Shown here piece by piece: positions 7,668-19,494 of a stretch of 35,827 nucleotides of DNA; within the stretch, counting starts at the first letter, position 1, and the number at the start of each line of letters is the position of its first letter. The position numbers and the translations under genes were made by a program. The stretch is from Anaerolineae bacterium. Lineage in GTDB: Bacteria; Chloroflexota; Anaerolineae; DTLA01. The notes below the pieces were generated by a model. It ran no database searches and was not told the origin of the DNA. It saw nothing but the letters and a program-made list of their open reading frames with translations. The stretch lies in NCBI GenBank assembly GCA_029907165.1, contig JARYMK010000010.1, forward strand, positions 1 to 35,827, read 5' to 3'.

Positions 7668-7707
7668 CGGAACCTCCCCACGGGTTGCCATCTGTTGGTC
7701 GGAGACG

Positions 7708-7736
7708 ATTATATCACGGCGCGGGGAATCTGTCAT
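7708..7736 (-). promoter_or_regulatory. Promoter of asnS
   Basis: Reverse complement ATGACA-17 nt-TATAAT. Confidence 0.7.
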
Positions 7737-7789
7737 ACTCGTTTACCCTGTCGCGGCAACCTATGCTACAATGGCGCAGGAGGCAGCGG

Positions 7790-10700
7790 ATGAGGTCGCC
7801 CCTGTTGCATCGCCGAAGACCGATAGGACACGCATGGGTGGCACGGGTGGCGCTGGCCGTCGCGGCGGGTGCGCTGCTTCTGGGCGCGTGCCAGGCAAAC
7901 GTGACCACCGGCACGCCCGGGGCCGCCCAGCGCACGCCCCGCACGCCCCAGCCCCCGGTCAGCCCGACCCCCGCGCCCGTCGGCCCCATCCTCGCCGGGT
8001 TCATCCCGCTGCGCCAGGGCATCGGTATCAACCCCACGGACATGGCGCTGGACACCAAGCACCACCGCCTCTACGTGCTGTGCGCTGAGGAAGTGGACCT
8101 CGTAGACACGCGCACTCTGCGCGTAACCCGCGTGCCCGTGCCACGCGGCAGCCGCATCCTGGGGCTGGACTCCGAGTTGCAGCGCGTGCTTCTGGGGGGC
8201 GCGGGCGGAAGCGGTCCCGCCGAGTTGTACGTCCTGGACGGCGCGACGGGTGTCATCGCGCGTAAGGTAACCCTCGCCGCCCCGCCCTGGCGGACGGTGT
8301 TCGTGCCATCGTACGGCCTGGCGGTCGTGTCGCTGGCTTCCGGCAGAGTAACCGCTGTCAACGTGAGCACGGGGCTGATGGTGCAAGTTCGTGCCGGAGG
8401 GTCGCATCCCCTCATGGCGGCCGACCCGGACGCGGGCAAGGTGTACTTGTCCGGCGCGACCGACGCACAAGGGCAAGAGGTTGCCAACGCGCTCTCGGTG
8501 CTGGACGCGCGCACGGGCAGGGTGGATGTCGTGCCGTTACCCGCCGCGCCCACCGCCTTCGCCGTGGACGAGCGCACTCACCGCCTGTTCATACTGCACC
8601 AGTACGCGGCATCCATGACAATCTACGCGCCCGATTCCGGGGTTGAAGGCACGTATGACCTGAGCGGCGAACCGGTGGAGATGGCGCTGGATCCGGGCCT
8701 GAACACCTTGTACATCACCGACTGGAGCCAGGGGCGGCTGCTTGTTGTGGACACGCGCAGGCCCGCCGGTTTCACGTCGCTGAACCTGTTCCCGTCCGCG
8801 CATTTTCTGCAACCGCAGGCAGCGGCCCCCAGACTGGTTGTCGCACAGGCCGGAGGGGAGCAAGCCGCTCTGGTGGACCGCGGGCGGATAACCGCGCTTG
8901 ACCTTCCGGGGCCGCCAGGGCCTGCCATCGTCCACCCGTCCAGCGGCGTGTCCTACGTCCTCGTCCCCGGCGAGAGGCTTGTCCTGGCGCTCGCTCCCGA
9001 CGGGGCCGAGTTCCTGCGCTGGACGCTGCCCTCCAGGCCCGAGGCGATGGTTCTGGATTCGGAGCAGGATCGGCTGTTCGTGTCCCTGCCAGCGGAGGGC
9101 GCAGTAGCCGTGATAGACCTGAACACCCGCATCCAGGACTTGATTCCACACGCGCTGGTACCCTCTGCTGCCGCCGCGCACCCGACCGACGGCCAGGTGT
9201 ACCTGGCGGATTCCGTCGGGGCGACTGTGTACGCCTTCTCGCCCAATCGGGAGCAGGCCGCGCGCGCCATCGCCTCAGGCCCGCGCCCCGTTGCCCTCGC
9301 CGTGAATTCCACCACCGGCGAGGTGTGGGTCTCGTGCGCCGATGGCCTGTACGCGGCTGCGCCCGGAAGCCGAACCGCCAGCCGGGTGCTGGAGTCGGCA
9401 GGCGCGCCGCTGATCGGCGTCAACAGCCGCCTGAACCAGGTCTATGCGGGGCCTTCGGGGCCGCCGTCCTCGGTGCAGGTTCTGGACGGCACGACCCACC
9501 GCCTGCTGAAGACCTTGCGCGGCGGGAAATTGGCTGCCCTGGACGTGGACGAGAACGCGGGCGCGCTCCTCGCCGCCTGGCAGTCGCCGAGCAGCCCGGG
9601 CACGCTGGCGCTCTCGCTCTTGGATGGCCCCTCGCTGGAAGAGCGGCGCGTGCAAGTGGCGCTGGCGGCCCGCGCGGGCGACCCAATGGCTGTATCGGCC
9701 GACGCGGCGCGGGGCGTGGTGGTCCTCGCCTACGGGAGCCAGCCGGTGCGGGTCGCGCTAGTGGATTTGCAGACCCAGCAGGTGTACCCCTACGGCGAAA
9801 TGATCACGGGCGCGGACATCGCCGAGGGGTACGCGCCGTTTGCCGTCGTGGGCGACAGGGCCAGAGGCAAGACCTTCGCGGGGGCCTACGGCGACAACCA
9901 CCTGATGTTGGTGGACAGCCAGAGCCGCGTGTCCGACACCGTGCCGCTCCAGGCAGGGCTGGCGGCGCTGGCGCTGGACGAGTCGCGTGGCAGGGTGTAC
10001 GCCGCGCTGCTGGACGGCACGGTGTCCATCGTGGATGTGCGCACGGGCCAGGTCCTGTCGCAGGTGGCCACGGGCGGGGCATCGTATCTGCTGGCGACAG
10101 ACGCCGCGCGGCAGCGGGTGTTCGCCTGCAGTTCGCGGCAGGCCACCGTGTACGTGATCCACGACATGCCCGCAGAGCCGACGCCGGAGCCGGCCGTAAC
10201 CCCGCTGCCCACAGGCACGCCGGCGGCAAACCTGGCGGCATGGACAACGTTCGCCAGCGGCGACGAGGTGCGGGCGCTCGCTTCGGACGGCCACTACGTA
10301 TGGGCGGCGACGACCGGAGGCATCGTCCGATGGAGCGCAAACGGCGAATCTTTCCAGCAGTTCCTCGCGCCGCAGGACGGGCTTCGCGCCAACAGTGTGT
10401 ACGATTTGGCGCTGGCGGGCAACGGCGACGTGTGGGCGGCAACGGCCGGCGGGGTTAGCCGCTACGCCACGCCGAGCTGGATCACGCTGCGCATCGGCGA
10501 GCCGGACATCCCGCAGGGCGACTTCCGCGCGGTCACCATCGGGCCGGATGGCGCGGTGTGGGCCGGAACCGGCGACGGCGTCGTGTACACGGTCTGGGGC
10601 AATGCTATCCCCCAGGTCGCTTTTCGCATACAGGGCCAGCCCATCACCGACATCGCCCTGGACTCGCAGGGGCGGCGCTGGGTGGCATCCTGGCTCGGCG

Positions 10701-12031
10701 TAACGGTGCTCTCGGACCAGGGCGTTCTCACCTACACGGCCCAGAACTCCGGCCTGCCTCCCGGCATTGTGAACGCGCTCCTCGTGCTGACCGACAGCAC
10801 GGTGCTGGCCGCAACCGATACGGGCTTGGCGCGATTCCAGAACGGCGCGTGGATGGCCTACGCCGCAGACAACGGCGCGCCCGGCGGGGCCACCGCGCTG
10901 GCGCAGACGGCAGACGGCACGCTGTGGGCCGCGTCGCCCCAGGGCATCTACCGGTACGACGGCCAGTGGAGCCGCGTGGGGGCGGTGCGCGACGCGGCGG
11001 TGCAGCACGCGGCCCTGTGGAAGCAGCCATTGCTGCGGAGCAAGCGCTGGCCCATCCTGGCTGCGGGGGGCAGAATCTGGGCCATCCTGGACACTGGCTT
11101 GGCCGACTTTGATGGGCAAATGTGGACTCGGCGCTCCACGACGGGCGCTGCCCCCCCGTCCAACCGCGTCCGGGCGCTGGCCATTGCGCCGGATGGCGCG
11201 CTGTGGGCAGGGTTCGCGGGCAGCCCCCCTGCCAGGTATGAGGGCAGGCGCTGGACCACGTTCGCCGCCCGCGAGCAGGCCCCCGCCAATGCCAACGCCA
11301 TCCTAGCCGACACGGAAGGGCGAATCTGGTTCGCGGCGGATGACGGCGTAGCCCTGTACGACGGCCAGCGCTGGACGAAGTTCAAGGCTGGCGAAGGCGG
11401 ACTGGCCGCGGGGCGCGCGCTGTCACTAGCGCGGGATAGCGCGGGCGCGCTGTGGGTCGGCACCGAGAACGGGATCAGCGTGCGCCGCAAGGAGAGTTGG
11501 ACGTCCTACGCGCCCGGCAGCAGCGGACTCCCGGGCGGGCGCGTGCTGTCCCTGGCAGTGAACAGCGACGGCGTCCTGTGGTGCGCCACCAACGCGGGTG
11601 TCGCGCGGTACGATGGGAAGGCCTGGGAGACGTACACCGACCCAGCCATGCCGCGCACCGAGCAGGAGATTTGGGGGCTGGCACTGGGCGGCGAGGGAAT
11701 GCGCTGGTTCGGCGCGCGGCAGGCCATCCGCCGACTTGTGGGCACGTCCTGGTTCAACTACCGCCATCTGCCCGAAGCCGTGGGCTACGACTACGCGCGC
11801 ATCCTGCAAACGGCGAACAACCCCAATCGCCTGTGGGCGGTGGACACGGTTCACGGAAAGGTGTGGATTGTGGTGGACGGCGGCGTGGCGGTCTACGACG
11901 GGCGCGCATGGGAGGTGTACACGCCCCGCAACTCCGGCCTGGCGTCGGCCAACGTCCGCGCCATCGTTGCCGACGGGCGCGGCGCGGTGTGGTTCGCCAC
12001 CGACAGGGGCATCAGCCGCTTCGCGCCGTAG
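7790..12031 (+). CDS. Large two-part beta-propeller lipoprotein (YVTN-like N-half, Reg_prop-like C-half)
   Basis: Start ATG at 7790 after AGGAGGCAGCGG; signal VALAVAAGALLLGAC (lipobox LGAC). N-half has repeats such as GTVSIVDVRTGQVLSQVATGG; Pro/Thr linker PAEPTPEPAVTPLPTGTPAA; C-half repeats DGALWAGFAG, DSAGALWVGTENGIS, NSDGVLWCATNAGVARYDGKAWETY. Confidence 0.85.
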   Translation: MRSPLLHRRRPIGHAWVARVALAVAAGALLLGACQANVTTGTPGAAQRTPRTPQPPVSPTPAPVGPILAGFIPLRQGIGINPTDMALDTKHHRLYVLCAEEVDLVDTRTLRVTRVPVPRGSRILGLDSELQRVLLGGAGGSGPAELYVLDGATGVIARKVTLAAPPWRTVFVPSYGLAVVSLASGRVTAVNVSTGLMVQVRAGGSHPLMAADPDAGKVYLSGATDAQGQEVANALSVLDARTGRVDVVPLPAAPTAFAVDERTHRLFILHQYAASMTIYAPDSGVEGTYDLSGEPVEMALDPGLNTLYITDWSQGRLLVVDTRRPAGFTSLNLFPSAHFLQPQAAAPRLVVAQAGGEQAALVDRGRITALDLPGPPGPAIVHPSSGVSYVLVPGERLVLALAPDGAEFLRWTLPSRPEAMVLDSEQDRLFVSLPAEGAVAVIDLNTRIQDLIPHALVPSAAAAHPTDGQVYLADSVGATVYAFSPNREQAARAIASGPRPVALAVNSTTGEVWVSCADGLYAAAPGSRTASRVLESAGAPLIGVNSRLNQVYAGPSGPPSSVQVLDGTTHRLLKTLRGGKLAALDVDENAGALLAAWQSPSSPGTLALSLLDGPSLEERRVQVALAARAGDPMAVSADAARGVVVLAYGSQPVRVALVDLQTQQVYPYGEMITGADIAEGYAPFAVVGDRARGKTFAGAYGDNHLMLVDSQSRVSDTVPLQAGLAALALDESRGRVYAALLDGTVSIVDVRTGQVLSQVATGGASYLLATDAARQRVFACSSRQATVYVIHDMPAEPTPEPAVTPLPTGTPAANLAAWTTFASGDEVRALASDGHYVWAATTGGIVRWSANGESFQQFLAPQDGLRANSVYDLALAGNGDVWAATAGGVSRYATPSWITLRIGEPDIPQGDFRAVTIGPDGAVWAGTGDGVVYTVWGNAIPQVAFRIQGQPITDIALDSQGRRWVASWLGVTVLSDQGVLTYTAQNSGLPPGIVNALLVLTDSTVLAATDTGLARFQNGAWMAYAADNGAPGGATALAQTADGTLWAASPQGIYRYDGQWSRVGAVRDAAVQHAALWKQPLLRSKRWPILAAGGRIWAILDTGLADFDGQMWTRRSTTGAAPPSNRVRALAIAPDGALWAGFAGSPPARYEGRRWTTFAAREQAPANANAILADTEGRIWFAADDGVALYDGQRWTKFKAGEGGLAAGRALSLARDSAGALWVGTENGISVRRKESWTSYAPGSSGLPGGRVLSLAVNSDGVLWCATNAGVARYDGKAWETYTDPAMPRTEQEIWGLALGGEGMRWFGARQAIRRLVGTSWFNYRHLPEAVGYDYARILQTANNPNRLWAVDTVHGKVWIVVDGGVAVYDGRAWEVYTPRNSGLASANVRAIVADGRGAVWFATDRGISRFAP

Positions 12032-12173: not shown

Positions 12174-13634
12174 CTACCGCCGATAGCCCGCCAGCAGGCG
12201 CATCACGTGGGCACGCTCGTCGCCCGTCGGGAACCCCGCTGCCCACAACAGCAGGGGGAACGCGGCGACCAGGGCCAGCCGCGCCGCCACCCGCGCCCAC
12301 AGCGCCAGCGGCCCCAGCAGGAGCGCCGACGCCGCCCACAGCCCCGTGCCCAGCCCCACCATCAAGGCTACCCGCCGCCCCTCCCACGGGATGGGATACA
12401 CGCGCTGGCCCGCGGCGAACGTAACGACCGCCAGCACTACGTAGGCTGCCGCCTTGCTCCACGCCGCCGCCGCAATGCCCCACGATGGTATCAGCGCCAG
12501 GTTCAGGGCGATGTTCAGCGCGGCCGCCGAGCCGGTGATGAGGGGCAGATAGGCCGTCTTGCGCCGGTAGAACAGGGCGAAGACGGCGGGGTAGTAGAAC
12601 CCCTGCGCCAGATGGGCCAGGGTGATCACCGGGACCCATCGCGCGGCGCTGTGGAACGTCGGCGCGGCCACGATGAGGATGACGTCCCCGCCCAGCATCG
12701 CCAGGCCCAGCGCCGCGAAGACCGCAATCCCGAGGTAGTAGGTGAAGAAGCGGGCCAGTCTGCGCTCAGCGTCCGGTTCCGACGCCAGACGGTAGAAGAA
12801 TGGCATCCACGCCGTGTTGAGCGCCTGCGTGATGAGGCTCAAGGCGATGCTCACCTGGTATGCCAGCGTGTACACCCCCACCTGATCCAGCGGCACTAGG
12901 TGGTTGAGAATACTGCGGTCCGAGAGGGTCAGCGCCCAGTGGGCCAGGAGATGCGGCACCACAGGCAGCCCGTAGGTCAGGCCCTCGGCAAGCCATCGCC
13001 GCTGGAAGGTCAGGTTCGCGTGTCGGAACGTGGTGGCCACATAGGCCAGCATCATGATGCCCGAGGCGATCATGACGCCCCGCAGGTTGCCCAGAGCGCC
13101 CGCGCTCTGCCCCACCACAAAGTACAGGATGGCCACCGTGGTCAGCAGGAACCCGCCGACCGTGTAGGTCACATAGCGGCGCGGGCGCTCCTGGACGCGG
13201 AAGATGACCAGCGGGATCACCGAAGCGTTGGCGAAGCACGCCGTCCAGAGCAGCGTCGTGATGTACGGTGAGAACGGGATGTCCCTCACCGCTAGGCCGA
13301 AGAGGGCCGGGCCGAGGGGCGTGGCTGCCAGAATCAGCGTGAGCGCCAGCCCGATGGCGAGCACCGCCACGGCCATCGTGCCCAGCAAGTCGCGGCGCGA
13401 GGTCTCGTCGGGCGCGTCGTAGTAGAAGCGCATGGCCGCAGCGTTCAGGCCCAGGGGATACAGAATCCCCAGCACGGCGGTCAGGCTGCTCGCCACGCCC
13501 AGGATGCCGTAGTCGGCCACCGAGAGGTAGCGCGTGTACACGGGGATAAGCAAAAAGGCGATGGCTTTGGTCAACGCGTCGCCCAGGCCGTAGGTTGCCG
13601 ATTGCGCCCCAAGGTTCTTGAGTTGGCGGAACAA
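12174..13634 (-). CDS. Oligosaccharide/polysaccharide flippase (Wzx/MATE-like)
   Basis: AQSATYGLGDALTKAIAFLLIPVYTRYLSVADYGILGVASSLTAVLGILYPLGLNAAAMRFYYD; about 12 to 14 TM segments. Confidence 0.9.
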   Translation of the reverse strand: MFRQLKNLGAQSATYGLGDALTKAIAFLLIPVYTRYLSVADYGILGVASSLTAVLGILYPLGLNAAAMRFYYDAPDETSRRDLLGTMAVAVLAIGLALTLILAATPLGPALFGLAVRDIPFSPYITTLLWTACFANASVIPLVIFRVQERPRRYVTYTVGGFLLTTVAILYFVVGQSAGALGNLRGVMIASGIMMLAYVATTFRHANLTFQRRWLAEGLTYGLPVVPHLLAHWALTLSDRSILNHLVPLDQVGVYTLAYQVSIALSLITQALNTAWMPFFYRLASEPDAERRLARFFTYYLGIAVFAALGLAMLGGDVILIVAAPTFHSAARWVPVITLAHLAQGFYYPAVFALFYRRKTAYLPLITGSAAALNIALNLALIPSWGIAAAAWSKAAAYVVLAVVTFAAGQRVYPIPWEGRRVALMVGLGTGLWAASALLLGPLALWARVAARLALVAAFPLLLWAAGFPTGDERAHVMRLLAGYRR

Positions 13635-13645
13635 GGCGCTCCTCG

Positions 13646-14734
13646 CTACTGGCCCATGCCGGGTGTGCGCAACAGGACTTTGTCAAACGTCAGGATGTCG
13701 TCTGCCTCCATATCCACGAGTGCCGTGCCGCCCACCACGTAGTCATACAAGGTCGGCGGGATGCCGGTGCCCGGGCGCTTGCACACCACGTCGTCGGCGG
13801 AGATCACCTGGCCCTTGCGGATGGGGCGAGCGGCCACCAGGCTGCGACGGGCATGGGCACGCGCCGGCTCCTCGGACGGCAGGTATTGCTTCTCGTCGCT
13901 GCCGAACAGGACCTCGGCGAAACGCACCCGTTCCACGAACCGCGCCAGGTCGTCGGCATCCATGGCGTGATAGTGGTCGTTGCCCGGAAGCGTCTTATCG
14001 TGGGTATAATGCTTCTCCAGCACCTGCGCGCCCAGAAGCCAAGCCAAAAACAGCACCTCGTCCATGCGGTCGGCAGGCGTGTGATCCGAGTAGCCGATGA
14101 TGGAGTCGGGGAAGATGCGGCGCATGTGGGCGATCATGCCTAGGTTTGCATCGGCATAGGCCGTGGGGTAGTTCAGCACGCAATGGAGGAGCGCGACCTG
14201 CTCGTTCCCCTCGGCGCGGATGAGTTCCAGCGCGCGGTGGATTTCCGACAGGGTGGACGCGCCGGTGGACAGGAGTATCGGCTTGCCCTTCTGGGCCACG
14301 CGGCGCAGGAGCGGCAGGTTCGTGATGTCGGCGGAGGCCACCTTGTACGCCGGAACCAGAGGCTCCAGCATGTCCACCGCCCGCAGATCAAACGGCGTGG
14401 ACAGAAAATCTACGCCGCATTCCCGCGCCGCCTCGGCCAGGCGCTCGTACTCCCTGTCGCCAAATCGGTCGTACTTCTTGAATAGTTCATACTGGCTGCG
14501 GGTCGGCTCCTTCGTGGTGTCCCAGTACGAGGGCGAGTGGCGCGATGCCAGGGCCTCGGCCTTGTACGTCTGGAACTTGATGGCGTCGGCCCCTGCCTGC
14601 GCGGCGCGACGCACCATCTCCACCGCCACGTCCAGACTGCCCTCGTGATTCACCCCTGCCTCGGCGATGATGTAAGGGCGCTGGAAACGGTCGCGCGCCA
14701 GGGTTCGTTTGCCGATGGTCAACTCACCGCGCAT
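13646..14734 (-). CDS. neuB: N-acetylneuraminate/nonulosonate synthase with SAF domain
   Basis: RPYIIAEAGVNHEGSLDVAVEMVRRAAQAGADAIKFQTYK; YPTAYADANLGMIAHMRRIFPDSIIGYSDHT; EKHYTHDKTLPGNDHYHAMD; C-terminal SAF RSLVAARPIRKGQVISADDVVCKRPGTGI. Confidence 0.9.
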   Translation of the reverse strand: MRGELTIGKRTLARDRFQRPYIIAEAGVNHEGSLDVAVEMVRRAAQAGADAIKFQTYKAEALASRHSPSYWDTTKEPTRSQYELFKKYDRFGDREYERLAEAARECGVDFLSTPFDLRAVDMLEPLVPAYKVASADITNLPLLRRVAQKGKPILLSTGASTLSEIHRALELIRAEGNEQVALLHCVLNYPTAYADANLGMIAHMRRIFPDSIIGYSDHTPADRMDEVLFLAWLLGAQVLEKHYTHDKTLPGNDHYHAMDADDLARFVERVRFAEVLFGSDEKQYLPSEEPARAHARRSLVAARPIRKGQVISADDVVCKRPGTGIPPTLYDYVVGGTALVDMEADDILTFDKVLLRTPGMGQ

Positions 14735-16394
14735 TCTTCCATCTCCAGTATTCGCTTTGAATCTCGCCGACGACGCGGTTCAGTCCACCGCGCAAGTCAG
14801 TCTCCAGCAGAGCCTCGCGCATGGCCCGCCGCAGGTCGGGCTGGGTGAGGATTCCCACGAGCGCCGCCTGCGCCATTTCCGGCGTGCGCGGCGAGGCCAT
14901 CCCCAGGTAGCGCACGCCTTTGTTATAGCGCGAGAAGAGGTGCAGCGTCTCGCGGTCGTTCTGGGAGATGCTGATGGTAGGCACGCCCATGGCCGCCAAC
15001 TCGTACACGGTGCGGCCGTTGGACGTAACCGCCACATCGGCCTGGCGCATGACCTTCGCCATGTTGCGCACGCTGCGCTGCACCTGCACCCGCTCGGCGA
15101 CCGCGCGCGGCAGGCCCGCCAGCGCCTGCGCCAGTTCGGCGTCGTGCGCGTAGCCAGGCCCCACGACCACGTCCACGCGGGCGAGCGGCACTTCATCCAG
15201 GACACGGGGAAGCACGCCCAGAACCTGGCATGTAAGGTTGTTCTGGTCCACGCCGCCGAAGGCGATGAGAAGCACCTGTGGCGGGTCGCGGAACTCGGCA
15301 GGCGGCACGTAGGTGAAGTGCCCCGGTAGGCAGAAGTAGGCGTGGCCGAAGCGGTGTGTCTCCTTGGGGTGGCTGTTCTCGTACAGGGCGTTGAACACCA
15401 AGTGCGCCTCGTCGGCCCCGCCCCCCAGGTCCTCAAAGTTTACCACGAACGCGCCCAACTGCCGCTGGCGGCGCACGTAGTCGGTGGACGTGTCCAGGAT
15501 GTCATTGATGATGAGGCTGGGCTGCAGGGCGGCGAGGCGGTCCAGAATCTCTCCCGACGTGGCCTCCACCAGTGTGTAGCCGTGCTCCTGTATCAGCGCC
15601 AGGTGCCGCGCATCGGTGTCCACGGCCACGAACGTGATGTCGTGCCCCAGGAGTGCATCGGCGATGGTCAACATGCGGTACAAATGCCCCATGCCAAGCG
15701 AAGCGTTGGCGGCGGTTACGATGGCGATCCGCAGTTTCCGCATGAGCGCCTCGGCCACGAGCCAGTCGGTGGGGGTGTCAATGTCCAGCCCCTCGTCCTC
15801 GGGCAGTTCCATGATGGAGATGCGTGGGCCGATGCCGTCGCCCGCCTGTACCCACTCGGGGCGAGTGATGAAAAACGCGCCCGACTCGCGGTAGCGGCGG
15901 GGCAGTTGCTGGCGGTTGACCCGCGCGGGGTAGTCGGGCACGGGTTGCCCGTCCTGCTCGCGCCACATGAGGTGGGTAGCGTCGGTGGCGGCCAGGAGCG
16001 TGTCCACACCCTGGGCCAGGAATGTGTCAATCGCGCGGTCCAGCGTCTCGGATCGCAGGAGCGGGCAGGTGGGCTGAAGCCGCACCACTGCGGAGTAGGG
16101 GCCGCGCTGCTCTGTGGCCCACGCCAGGGCGTCCCGCACCACGGGGGCCAGTGGCACGTCGTCCTCGGCCAGCGCGGGCGGGCGACGGCGCAGCAGGATG
16201 CCGAACTGCGCGGCGTAGGCCAGGATGTCCTCGTCCTCGGACGTGAGGACGATGTCGGTGATGCGCCGCGAGTTCAGCGCGGTGTGCAGGACGTAGTACA
16301 ATAGCGGGCGACCGTTGAGCAGGCGCAGGTTCTTGCGGCGCACGCCCTTGGAGTCGCCGCGAGCTGGGATGACGGCAAGAATTCGTTCGGACAC
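14724..16394 (-). CDS. Fusion: acylneuraminate cytidylyltransferase (NeuA/PseF-like) plus PseG-like nucleotide-sugar hydrolase
   Basis: N-half ILAVIPARGDSKGVRRKNLRLLNGRPLLYYVL...LQPTCPLLRSETLDRAID...DIDTPTDW; C-half RIAIVTAANASLGMGHLYRMLTIADALL...LIINDILDTS...LLIAFGGVDQNNLT...VAVTSNGRTVYELAAMGVPTISI. GTG start; overlaps neuB by 11 nt. Confidence 0.88.
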   Translation of the reverse strand: MSERILAVIPARGDSKGVRRKNLRLLNGRPLLYYVLHTALNSRRITDIVLTSEDEDILAYAAQFGILLRRRPPALAEDDVPLAPVVRDALAWATEQRGPYSAVVRLQPTCPLLRSETLDRAIDTFLAQGVDTLLAATDATHLMWREQDGQPVPDYPARVNRQQLPRRYRESGAFFITRPEWVQAGDGIGPRISIMELPEDEGLDIDTPTDWLVAEALMRKLRIAIVTAANASLGMGHLYRMLTIADALLGHDITFVAVDTDARHLALIQEHGYTLVEATSGEILDRLAALQPSLIINDILDTSTDYVRRQRQLGAFVVNFEDLGGGADEAHLVFNALYENSHPKETHRFGHAYFCLPGHFTYVPPAEFRDPPQVLLIAFGGVDQNNLTCQVLGVLPRVLDEVPLARVDVVVGPGYAHDAELAQALAGLPRAVAERVQVQRSVRNMAKVMRQADVAVTSNGRTVYELAAMGVPTISISQNDRETLHLFSRYNKGVRYLGMASPRTPEMAQAALVGILTQPDLRRAMREALLETDLRGGLNRVVGEIQSEYWRWKNAR

Positions 16395-16423
16395 GGAGCC
16401 TCCACACGTTCGTCGTTGCTCGT

Positions 16424-16451
16424 ATTATACGCCACGAGGGTCATCCGTCAA
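16424..16451 (-). promoter_or_regulatory. Promoter of the nonulosonate cassette
   Basis: Reverse complement TTGACG-16 nt-TATAAT, upstream of the GTG start at 16394. Confidence 0.7.
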
Positions 16452-16460
16452 CGCGAGGAC

Positions 16461-16491
16461 AAAAGAAAAGCCGCCCCGAATGGAGCGGCTT
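16461..16491 (-). terminator. Intrinsic terminator of the tRNA-Gly transcript
   Basis: Reverse complement AAGCCGCTCC-ATTC-GGGGCGGCTT followed by TTCTTTTG. Confidence 0.75.
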
Positions 16492-16493
16492 CA

Positions 16494-16568
16494 TGGAGCG
16501 GGTGATGGGATTCGAACCCACGACACTCTGCTTGGGAAGCAGATGCGCTACCCCTGCGCTACACCCGC
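16494..16568 (-). tRNA. tRNA-Gly(CCC), CCA encoded
   Basis: Reverse complement GCGGGTGTAGCGCAGGGGTAGCGCATCTGCTTCCCAAGCAGAGTGTCGTGGGTTCGAATCCCATCACCCGCTCCA; acceptor GCGGGTG/CACCCGC, anticodon stem TCTGC/GCAGA with loop TTCCCAA, T-loop TTCGAAT. Confidence 0.96.
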
Positions 16569-16580
16569 TTTTGTGATATA

Positions 16581-16609
16581 ATCATACACCAAGCGAATCC
16601 CTTTGTCAA
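16581..16609 (-). promoter_or_regulatory. Consensus-like promoter of tRNA-Gly
   Basis: Reverse complement TTGACA-17 nt-TATGAT just upstream of the tRNA. Confidence 0.8.
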
Positions 16610-16619
16610 GTGAGGTGGC

Positions 16620-18068
16620 ATGAATCTGACCATCGTGGGGCTGGGGCCGGGCGACCCGAAACTGCTGACCCTGGAGGCGCAAAACGTCCTGGCGCGCGCC
16701 TCCGAAATCTACGTCCGCACGCGCAAGCACCCCACCGTGGACGCGCTGCCCGCGACCGCCGTCGTCCACTCCTTTGACCGCTTCTACGAGGAATACGACG
16801 ACTTCGCCCAGGTGTACGCAGCCATTGCTGAGGAGGTCATCCGCCTGGCGCGGCGCGAGGAGGGCGTGGTGTACGCCGTGCCGGGCCACCCGCTGGTGGG
16901 CGAGCGCAGCGTGCAACTGGCGCTCCGGATGGCGCGCGAGGCGGCAATCCCCGTGCGCATCGTGGACGGGTTGAGTTTCGTGGAGCCGACCCTCGCGGCG
17001 CTGGGCGTGGACGCGCTGGACGGCCTGCAAATCGCCGATGCCACGGAACTCGCCCTGCTCCACCACCCGCGCCTTGACCCCGACCGGCCCGCGCTGGTGG
17101 CGCAACTGTACAGCCGCGATTTGGCCGCCGAAGTGAAACTCACGCTGATGAACCAGTACCCCGACGAGCACCCGGTCGTCCTGGTGGGCGCGGCAGGCAC
17201 GCCCCGCCAGCGCGTCGCCGAACTCCCGCTGTACGAGATAGACCGCCAGGCGTGGGTGGATCACCTCACGTCGCTGTACGTCCCCCCGCTGCCCCAGCCC
17301 AGCGGCATGGAATCGTTCCAGGAGACCATCGCCCACCTGCGCGCGCCCGATGGCTGCCCGTGGGATCGGGAGCAGACCCACCAGACCCTGCGCACCAATC
17401 TGCTGGAGGAAGCCTACGAGGCGCTGGAAGCCATAGACCGGGACGATGCGGATGCCCTCATGGAGGAATTGGGCGACCTGCTGCTGCAAATCGTGCTCCA
17501 CGCGCAGATCGCCACCGACGAGGGCGAATTTCGCATGCCCGACGTCATCGCCCACATTGACGCCAAACTCAAGCGCCGCCACCCCCACGTCTTCGGCGAT
17601 GTCAAGGTCTCCGGCGCGGCCGAGGTTACGGTCAACTGGGAGGAGATCAAGCGCGAGGAGCGCAACCACGCCGACCACCGCTCCATGCTGGACGGCGTGC
17701 CCAAGACGCTGCCCGCGCTATCGCAGGCCCAGGATTACCAGATGCGCGTGGCCCGCGTGGGATTTGACTGGCCCGGCATTGAGGGCGTGCGCCGCAAGAT
17801 CACCGAGGAACTCCGCGAACTGGACGAGGCCCGGACCGCCGAGGAACGCGAGGGCGAGATGGGCGACCTGCTGTTCGCGGTGGTAAACCTGGCCCGCTGG
17901 CTGGGCGTGGACGCAGAGAGCGCCCTGCGCCGCGCCAACGCCCGCTTTGCGCGTCGCTTCGCCGCCATGGAGCGCCGCTGCGCCGAGACCGGCCGCACCC
18001 TCGCGGATTTGACGCTTGAGGAGCAGGACGCCCTGTGGGAAGCGGCGAAGGCCGATGAGACACCTTGA
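16620..18068 (+). CDS. mazG: Tetrapyrrole methylase-MazG fusion, NTP pyrophosphohydrolase (YabN-like)
   Basis: MNLTIVGLGPGDPKLLTLEAQ methylase N-domain; ETIAHLRAPDGCPWDREQTHQTLRTNLLEEAYEALEAID, ELGDLLLQIVLHAQIA, NWEEIKREER MazG signatures. Confidence 0.93.
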   Translation: MNLTIVGLGPGDPKLLTLEAQNVLARASEIYVRTRKHPTVDALPATAVVHSFDRFYEEYDDFAQVYAAIAEEVIRLARREEGVVYAVPGHPLVGERSVQLALRMAREAAIPVRIVDGLSFVEPTLAALGVDALDGLQIADATELALLHHPRLDPDRPALVAQLYSRDLAAEVKLTLMNQYPDEHPVVLVGAAGTPRQRVAELPLYEIDRQAWVDHLTSLYVPPLPQPSGMESFQETIAHLRAPDGCPWDREQTHQTLRTNLLEEAYEALEAIDRDDADALMEELGDLLLQIVLHAQIATDEGEFRMPDVIAHIDAKLKRRHPHVFGDVKVSGAAEVTVNWEEIKREERNHADHRSMLDGVPKTLPALSQAQDYQMRVARVGFDWPGIEGVRRKITEELRELDEARTAEEREGEMGDLLFAVVNLARWLGVDAESALRRANARFARRFAAMERRCAETGRTLADLTLEEQDALWEAAKADETP

Positions 18069-18081
18069 TTGGAGGAAAGAC

Positions 18082-19494
18082 ATGACCCGCAATGCGCGCC
18101 CGTTCTTGGAGAAGTTGCAGGACGCAGTCGCCCGCGCGGAGTCGCTGCTGTGCGTGGGGCTGGACCCCGACCTGTCGCGGATACCGGCGCGATTCCGCTC
18201 CGCCGATGACCCCGTGGCGGCGTTCAACCGCCACATCATAGAGCAGACGGCTCCCTTCGCCGCGGCGTTCAAGCCCAACATCGCCTTCTACGAGGCGCTG
18301 GGGCAAGCGGGGTTGCAGGCGCTGGCGGCCACCATCGCCGCCATCCCGCCGGAGATTCCCGTCATCCTGGATGCCAAGCGGGGCGACATCGGGAGCACCG
18401 CCGAAGCCTACGCCCGCGCCGCCTTTGAAGTCTGGGAGGCCGACGCCCTGACCGTGAACCCCTACCTGGGCCTGGAATCCCTCGCGCCGTTCCTGAAGCA
18501 CGGCGACCGCGGGCTGTTCGTCCTGTGCCTCACGTCCAACCCCGGCGCGGCGGAGTTCCAGACCCGCGCTCCCCTAGGCGAGCCGCTGTTCCTGCAGGTG
18601 GCTCGGCGCGTGGCGGCCGAGATGCCGCCTTCCGTCGGGCTGGTGGTCGGCGCGACGCAGGCCGAGCACCTGGCGCGGATTCGGACCGCCGCGCCCGACC
18701 GGTGGTTCCTGGTCCCGGGTGTGGGCGCGCAGGGCGGGGATTTGGCCATGACCCTGGCCAACGGCCTGGACGCCTGCGGCTCCGGCCTGCTCATCGCCGC
18801 GTCGCGCAGCATCCTATACGCCGACGATCCCGCCCAGGCCGCGCGGGCGCTCCGCGCTGCCATCGCCGAGGGACGCAGGCCCGGCGCGGGGCGGAGCCTG
18901 CACGAGCATCTGGCGCTGGCGCTGGCCGACTGCGGCGCGGTGCGCTTCGGCGAGTTCCGGCTGAAGTCCGGCAAACTTTCGCCCATCTACATTGACCTGC
19001 GGGTGCTGGCGTCGTATCCCGAAGTGCTGAGCCAGGTCGCCAGCGTATACGCGCAGTTGCTGGCGGGCCTGACCTACGACCGCCTGGCGGCCATCCCCTA
19101 CGCCGCGATGCCCATCGGCACGGCGGTGTCGCTCCTCACGGGCAAGCCGATGGTGTACCCGCGGCGCGAGGTCAAGGAATACGGCACGCGCCGCTCCATA
19201 GAGGGGCTGTACGAGCCGGGCGAAACCGTCGTCGTGCTGGATGACCTGGCGACGACAGGGGCCAGCAAGATAGAAGTGGCCCAGGCTCTGGAAGCCGAAG
19301 GCGTGCACATCTCCGACATGGTGGTGCTCATAGACCGCGAGCAAGGGGCCGCCGCTGACCTGGCGCGGGCCGGCTATACCCTGCACAGCGCCTTCCGCCT
19401 GACCGAACTCCTGGACATCCTGGCCAAGCACGGGCGCATCACCGCCGAGCAGCGGGCGCAGGTGCTGGCCTACCTGGAGGCAGACCGGTCATGA
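18082..19494 (+). CDS. Bifunctional orotidine-5'-phosphate decarboxylase / orotate phosphoribosyltransferase
   Basis: N-half [33 protein letters not shown] (OMPDC); C-half [40 protein letters not shown] (PRPP-binding OPRT). GGAGGAAAGAC SD before ATG 18082. Confidence 0.95.

Follow-up and report, generated by a model that had tools for sequence, protein, structure and literature searches.

Introduction

The window, by which is meant the whole 35,827-nucleotide stretch of contig JARYMK010000010.1 (assembly GCA_029907165.1, an Anaerolineae bacterium), contains a gene that joins a CMP-sugar cytidylyltransferase to a PseG-like nucleotide-sugar hydrolase. A NeuB-family nonulosonate synthase and a flippase are encoded directly after it. 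This locus raises two questions: what is done by a protein that unites the step before NeuB with the step after it, and on which sugar does it act? Both are approached here from the domains, the conserved motifs, the gene arrangement and its conservation, and the gene content of the genome. These were established directly; the two reactions and the sugar are inferred from them.

Organization of the gene cluster

In the ORF listing the three genes lie on the minus strand in the order fusion, NeuB, flippase, spanning 16394 to 12174. The features of the region are:

16494-16568, minus strand: tRNA-Gly(CCC), directly upstream of the cassette
16492-16467: terminator-like hairpin between tRNA-Gly and the cassette
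16424-16451, minus strand: promoter-like site TTGACG-16-TATAAT, 11 of 12 matches
14724-16394, minus strand: fused cytidylyltransferase and PseG-like protein, 556 aa, GTG start
15738-16394, minus strand: N-terminal half, NeuA/PseF-type CMP-sugar cytidylyltransferase, about residues 1-219
14727-15737, minus strand: C-terminal half, predicted PseG-like GT-B nucleotide-sugar hydrolase, about residues 220-556
13646-14734, minus strand: NeuB-family nonulosonate synthase with SAF domain, 362 aa, overlapping the fusion gene by 11 bases
12174-13634, minus strand: Wzx-type polysaccharide flippase, 486 aa, TTG start 11 bases past NeuB, ribosome site GAGGAG

The flippase matches Polysacc_synt (PF01943) in Pfam at 6.4e-20. 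It falls outside the interval 13646-16451, whose two ends are set by NeuB and the -35 box.

The initial annotation had placed the cassette under one promoter, and the TTGACG-16-TATAAT site bears this out, as it is kept in the congeners G001 and G040. Three promoter-like sites were observed in the region against 0.4 expected. In G001 the same promoter stands 5′ of the same operon; in G040 it is also conserved, but a methyltransferase gene intervenes before the fusion. This insert (L067:6861-7991), absent from the window and from G001, encodes a SAM-dependent methyltransferase with Zn-finger-like cysteines, for which the product of the cassette is possibly the methylation target. The tRNA, separated from the cassette by the hairpin, is also found upstream in two relatives (L067 and L103).

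Two other putative fusions, read by eye, adjoin the cassette: PyrF-PyrE (18016-19494) and methylase-MazG (16620-18068). Convergent to the flippase is a gene for a 1448-aa repeat protein (7685-12031) with a lipoprotein-like start and propeller-like repeats, a possible surface protein. In L067, too, the flippase is followed by a frame of comparable length (12391-16695).

The two halves of the fusion protein

The proposal that a cytidylyltransferase and PseG-like fusion precedes NeuB and a flippase was borne out by domain matches well beyond chance for both halves. Residues 7-132 match CTP_transf_3 in Pfam at 2.5e-19 (70.4 bits, gathering score 22.6), and residues 6-218 match PseF (TIGR03584) at 7.8e-28 with 97.6 bits, under the NCBIfam cut-off of 205.7. 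The best solved relatives of this half are CMP-sialate synthetases. It retains R12, S15, K16, K21, N22 and Q107, together with the metal-site motif DIDT (D204, D206), all in invariant alignment columns. At residue 14 (16353-16355) the CTP-binding motif reads ARGDSKG, where relatives have ARGGSKG or ARRGSKG.

In the C-terminal half, residues 222-477 match PseG (TIGR03590) at 1.7e-31 with 109.9 bits, under the NCBIfam equivalog cut-off of 153.55. A profile search of solved structures, with a profile built from PseG-like sequences including the fused halves, placed Campylobacter jejuni PseG (3hbm) at 3.1e-28, far ahead of other matches. An AlphaFold2 model of this half had a mean pLDDT of 80.8, with weak segments that include 273-286, just past the loop described below. 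Foldseek ranked 3hbm first for this model (7.4e-12), and 3hbn gave a TMt of 0.72.

The initial annotation had made its reading depend on PseG catalytic residues in this half, and these are retained in part. The motif GMGH, with H237, is the counterpart of the C. jejuni GxGH, in which 3hbm puts the histidine at position 17; the alignment shows this histidine to be invariant across all fusions and canonical PseG proteins. The loop that bears N255 and Q256, on the other hand, is altered. Most canonical PseG halves examined have (A)(D/E)NQ here, with NQ at C. jejuni 255-256, and the fusion has QNDRE (478-482). In cellular fusions the loop is Q-N-[DEN]-R-E and two residues shorter; in the phage fusion described below it is VNIRE. 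N479, an invariant Asn, aligns to N255, which is reportedly important for catalysis in PseG, and at the Q256 position the fusions have D, E, N or I.

An alternative is that this half works as a GT-B glycosyltransferase, with either a sugar or the nonulosonic acid as the group transferred, instead of as a UDP-sugar hydrolase. Pfam finds only glycosyltransferase domains in it, below cut-off for the window's protein; the Foldseek matches after PseG are mostly glycosyltransferases, MurG among them; and the cassette has no separate CMP-sugar transferase. PseG is nevertheless the top match by profile, NCBIfam and Foldseek E-value, GxGH is retained, and if this half were not a hydrolase there would be no enzyme found to release the substrate of NeuB. 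A glycosyltransferase is for these reasons improbable.

The families named in the initial annotation, PseF and PseG, are thus those that the two halves match, but neither half reaches a curated cut-off. Because the scores lie under the NCBIfam equivalog cut-offs, neither was given a specific PseF or PseG name. Judged from sequence, both are family relatives and not a textbook PseG or PseF.

NeuB and the proposed reactions

NeuB is above the Pfam gathering score for both PF03102 (1.3e-77, 260.9 bits) and SAF (50.6 bits), and retains the motifs SDHT and EKHYT. Its NCBIfam subtype scores, 333 for NnaB (cut-off 399.65) and 256.9 for PseI (cut-off 340.25), reach neither cut-off. The closest solved relative is Bacillus subtilis SpsE (1vli, 1.1e-61). 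Identity is 53–54% to the NeuB proteins of two distant carriers of the fusion, G139 and G316, compared to 35–36% to SpsE, NmNeuB or PseI.

Taken together, these features suggest that the 556-aa protein is probably a bifunctional enzyme that brackets NeuB, releasing the sugar from UDP and later activating the product with CMP. The C-terminal half would free an amino sugar from its UDP carrier by hydrolysis. NeuB, going by its family, would condense the released sugar with phosphoenolpyruvate to form a nonulosonic acid, and the N-terminal half, from its family and conserved residues, is expected to convert the acid and CTP to the CMP-nonulosonate. The flippase would export a glycan bearing the nonulosonate. 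Joining the two steps that flank NeuB would couple release of its substrate to activation of its product, and might allow channelling through NeuB.

Substrate supply in the window's genome

The window's genome, which is 98% complete, contains only one NeuB and only one PseG homologue, the C-terminal half of the fusion. As the initial annotation stated, the other Pse/Leg genes do not occur in the window: matches to DegT and PF02719 in the genome are all on other contigs. The PglF-type dehydratase encoded on contig C222 (624 aa) has an extended N-terminal region and a catalytic Met-Lys, STDKAVRPTSIMGATK, and is adjoined by a DegT aminotransferase with a PLP lysine. A NeuD/PglD-type acetyltransferase above cut-off, unlinked to the cassette, is encoded on C291 and is a candidate for the 4-N-acetyltransferase.

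This dehydratase, aminotransferase and acetyltransferase set resembles the B. subtilis sps set, and a UDP-diamino-sugar route is therefore the likeliest in the window's genome. UDP-GlcNAc would pass through the PglF-type dehydratase, the aminotransferase beside it and the acetyltransferase to become the sugar, as in B. subtilis. By this analogy there is about an even chance that a legionaminic-type acid, or an isomer of one, is the product. The stereochemistry is unexplained, because legionaminic acid requires inversion at C2, and to our knowledge no PseG-type hydrolase does this. The C222 and C291 genes, being unlinked to the cassette, could also serve another sugar, e.g., bacillosamine.

A standard pseudaminic acid pathway with its remaining genes scattered over the genome would account for the fact that PseF and PseG are the best-named families, and for the presence of a dehydratase and an aminotransferase. 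The dehydratase, however, is of the long PglF type, and no short PseB-like dehydratase was found in the window's genome. The NCBIfam cut-offs for PseF, PseG, PseC and PseI are all missed there, and NeuB scores higher as NnaB than as PseI. Elsewhere in the class, canonical Pse clusters keep PseF and PseG apart and have the NQ loop. This pathway is therefore very improbable.

Standard Neu5Ac formation by NeuC was rejected for the window's genome, which has no match to PF02350, the family of the hydrolysing UDP-GlcNAc 2-epimerase on which a NeuC-type Neu5Ac or LegG-type pathway would rely; none was found at E ≤ 1e-10 in this genome (G000) or in G001 or G040. Nor was an N-acylglucosamine 2-epimerase (PF07221) found in the window's genome.

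Distribution of the fusion in bacteria and phage

Full-length relatives of the fusion have 90, 83, 43 and 41% identity to it. It is present in all three genomes of the order. Among 298 genomes of the class there is one further carrier, G139 (43% identity, 551 residues aligned), and a 400-genome sample of the phylum added one more, G316 (41%). One contig scan of genomes returned only the 90% relative.

A search of viral contigs with the fusion alignment revealed a 550-aa NeuA-PseG fusion and NeuB on a tailed-phage contig, IMGVR_UViG_3300027847_000690 (L148:5998-8996). The unit adjoins head genes, including one for a major head protein (phrog_1005, 1.3e-71), and the fusion and NeuB are the only nonulosonate genes on the contig. 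The contig is present in two assemblies (L148 and L136), identical over 7811 bases. A protein search of INPHARED gave no phage with a NeuA-PseG fusion and NeuB.

NeuB directly follows the fusion in G001, G040, G139 and G316 and on the phage contig; a flippase of this kind directly after NeuB is found only within the genus. The fusion and NeuB thus occur in three divergent Chloroflexota lineages and on a tailed-phage contig, and are, to judge from these sequences, a two-gene unit inherited together. Shared as they are by distant relatives and a bacterial virus, they have the look of a portable kit. A frame or assembly artefact was rejected: the fusion is genuine, because the open frame is retained in five bacterial genomes and the phage contig.

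A tree built from 28 PseG-like domains unites the fused halves (81/57) and sets them apart from the canonical proteins of Pse clusters; the placement of the phage row, a long one, is unsure. An alignment of a wide mixed set, in which stand-alone PseG rows were misplaced onto the NeuA half, was left out.

Several other candidates were rejected as fusions. A 760-aa frame in G165 and a 536-aa frame in G271 have PseG without an in-frame cytidylyltransferase, and no cytidylyltransferase is in frame with the PseG frames of about 500 aa in G416, G533 and G392. Plasmid matches spanning both halves (H1, H4 and H8) proved to be separate adjacent genes. In several Chloroflexota (L068, L069, L070 and L128-L130) PseG frames of about 500 aa reach well past the PseG domain; the extensions in G533 and G392, from translations read by eye, are GNAT acetyltransferase-like.

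The substrate in distant carriers

The two distant carriers bear on the nature of the substrate. G316 is 99% complete in 7 contigs; the G139 unit comes from a contig of 14.6 kb in a MAG whose contamination is 3%. Neither has a match covering the full PglF-type dehydratase. The sole DegT-family match of each at E ≤ 1e-20 resembles RfbH/ColD and carries His where the PLP lysine is expected:

L124:6207-7439 (G316): His-bearing DegT-family protein, scoring as or near RfbH
L125:4160-6367 (G139): His-bearing DegT-family protein, scoring as or near RfbH

Family searches with cut-offs found no lysine-bearing sugar 4-aminotransferase in G139 or G316. Neither seems capable of forming a 4-amino sugar via known enzymes of this kind, and the substrate of the fusion there is therefore probably not a 2,4-diamino sugar. 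In G316 a gene for WecB, the non-hydrolysing UDP-GlcNAc 2-epimerase (371.8 bits, cut-off 210), lies about 4 kb beyond NeuB. In view of the gene content of these genomes, wecB in G316 and the bare two-gene set of the phage, the hydrolase half may accept simpler UDP-HexNAcs. The UDP-linked 2,4-diamino substrate assumed in the initial annotation is thus plausible in the window's genome, with its C222 and C291 genes, but is not general. By itself, the fusion is no indicator of which sugar is made.

Could the 2,4-diamino sugar be dispensed with altogether, the hydrolase half acting on a common UDP-HexNAc, for instance UDP-ManNAc or UDP-GlcNAc, so that a nonulosonic acid, Neu5Ac-like or unusual, is formed with no need of NeuC? 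The evidence from G139, G316 and the phage would fit, as would the distinct loop, with QN[DEN]RE and GRT, in the PseG halves of the fusion clade. Against this, the window's genome has neither a PF02350 epimerase to supply UDP-ManNAc nor a PF07221 epimerase, and has a plausible diamino-sugar set; moreover, the absences in G139 and G316 rest on family-search cut-offs, and the unit of G139 comes from the MAG with 3% contamination. We regard this as rather unlikely. In a more specific form, the hydrolase halves of the fusions would be a distinct branch within the PseG superfamily, and fusion plus NeuB a portable two-gene nucleotide-swap unit that takes in a UDP-HexNAc without a 4-amino group and gives out a CMP-nonulosonate; this is a rather doubtful proposition. 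If true, bacteria and a tailed phage would have a way to sialic acid, or to a nonulosonic acid not yet described, that does not need NeuC. Should the hydrolase half work on other UDP-sugars, PseG-like genes would be useless for predicting pseudaminic or legionaminic acid, and a compact two-gene kit, borne by phages as well, could change surface sugars. For the window's genome the UDP-diamino-sugar route is still preferred.

Comparison with known systems

Fusions among nonulosonate enzymes are already known; the NeuA-PseG pairing is without a description in the searchable literature. In Leptospira, NeuB is fused to a phosphatase (PMC3438082). There too neighbouring steps of nonulosonate synthesis are joined, with different partners and chemistry. 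In PseG-GNAT (PseG/PseH) fusions, such as Parabacteroides WP_009276750, a PseG domain is likewise joined to a nonulosonate enzyme beside NeuB. Their partner, however, is the acetyltransferase of the preceding step and their NQ loop is canonical, whereas here the partner is the cytidylyltransferase of a later step.

The pseudaminic acid pathway of Campylobacter and Helicobacter (PseB, C, H, G, I, F) shares with the present system the PseG fold, the His17 motif and the PseF and PseI families. It differs in that the scores here are below cut-offs, the N255/Q256 loop is altered and the short PseB-like dehydratase is missing from the matches. A rhizobial triplet (L201 and L202) has NeuB, an SpsF-like and a PseG-like protein, the trio in order, and its PseG-like proteins branch beside the fusion group, also without NQ; its genes are unfused, the cytidylyltransferase is SpsF-like and the neighbours are others.

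Legionaminic acid formation in B. subtilis employs SpsM, a PglF-type dehydratase, with SpsC, D, G, E and F (PMC7439481). The two systems have in common the trio of NeuB-type synthase, cytidylyltransferase and PseG-like hydrolase, and a PglF-type UDP-GlcNAc dehydratase and an aminotransferase in the genome. Unlike the separate SpsF and SpsG of B. subtilis, their counterparts here are fused, the genes for the early steps are on other contigs, and there is no spore context.
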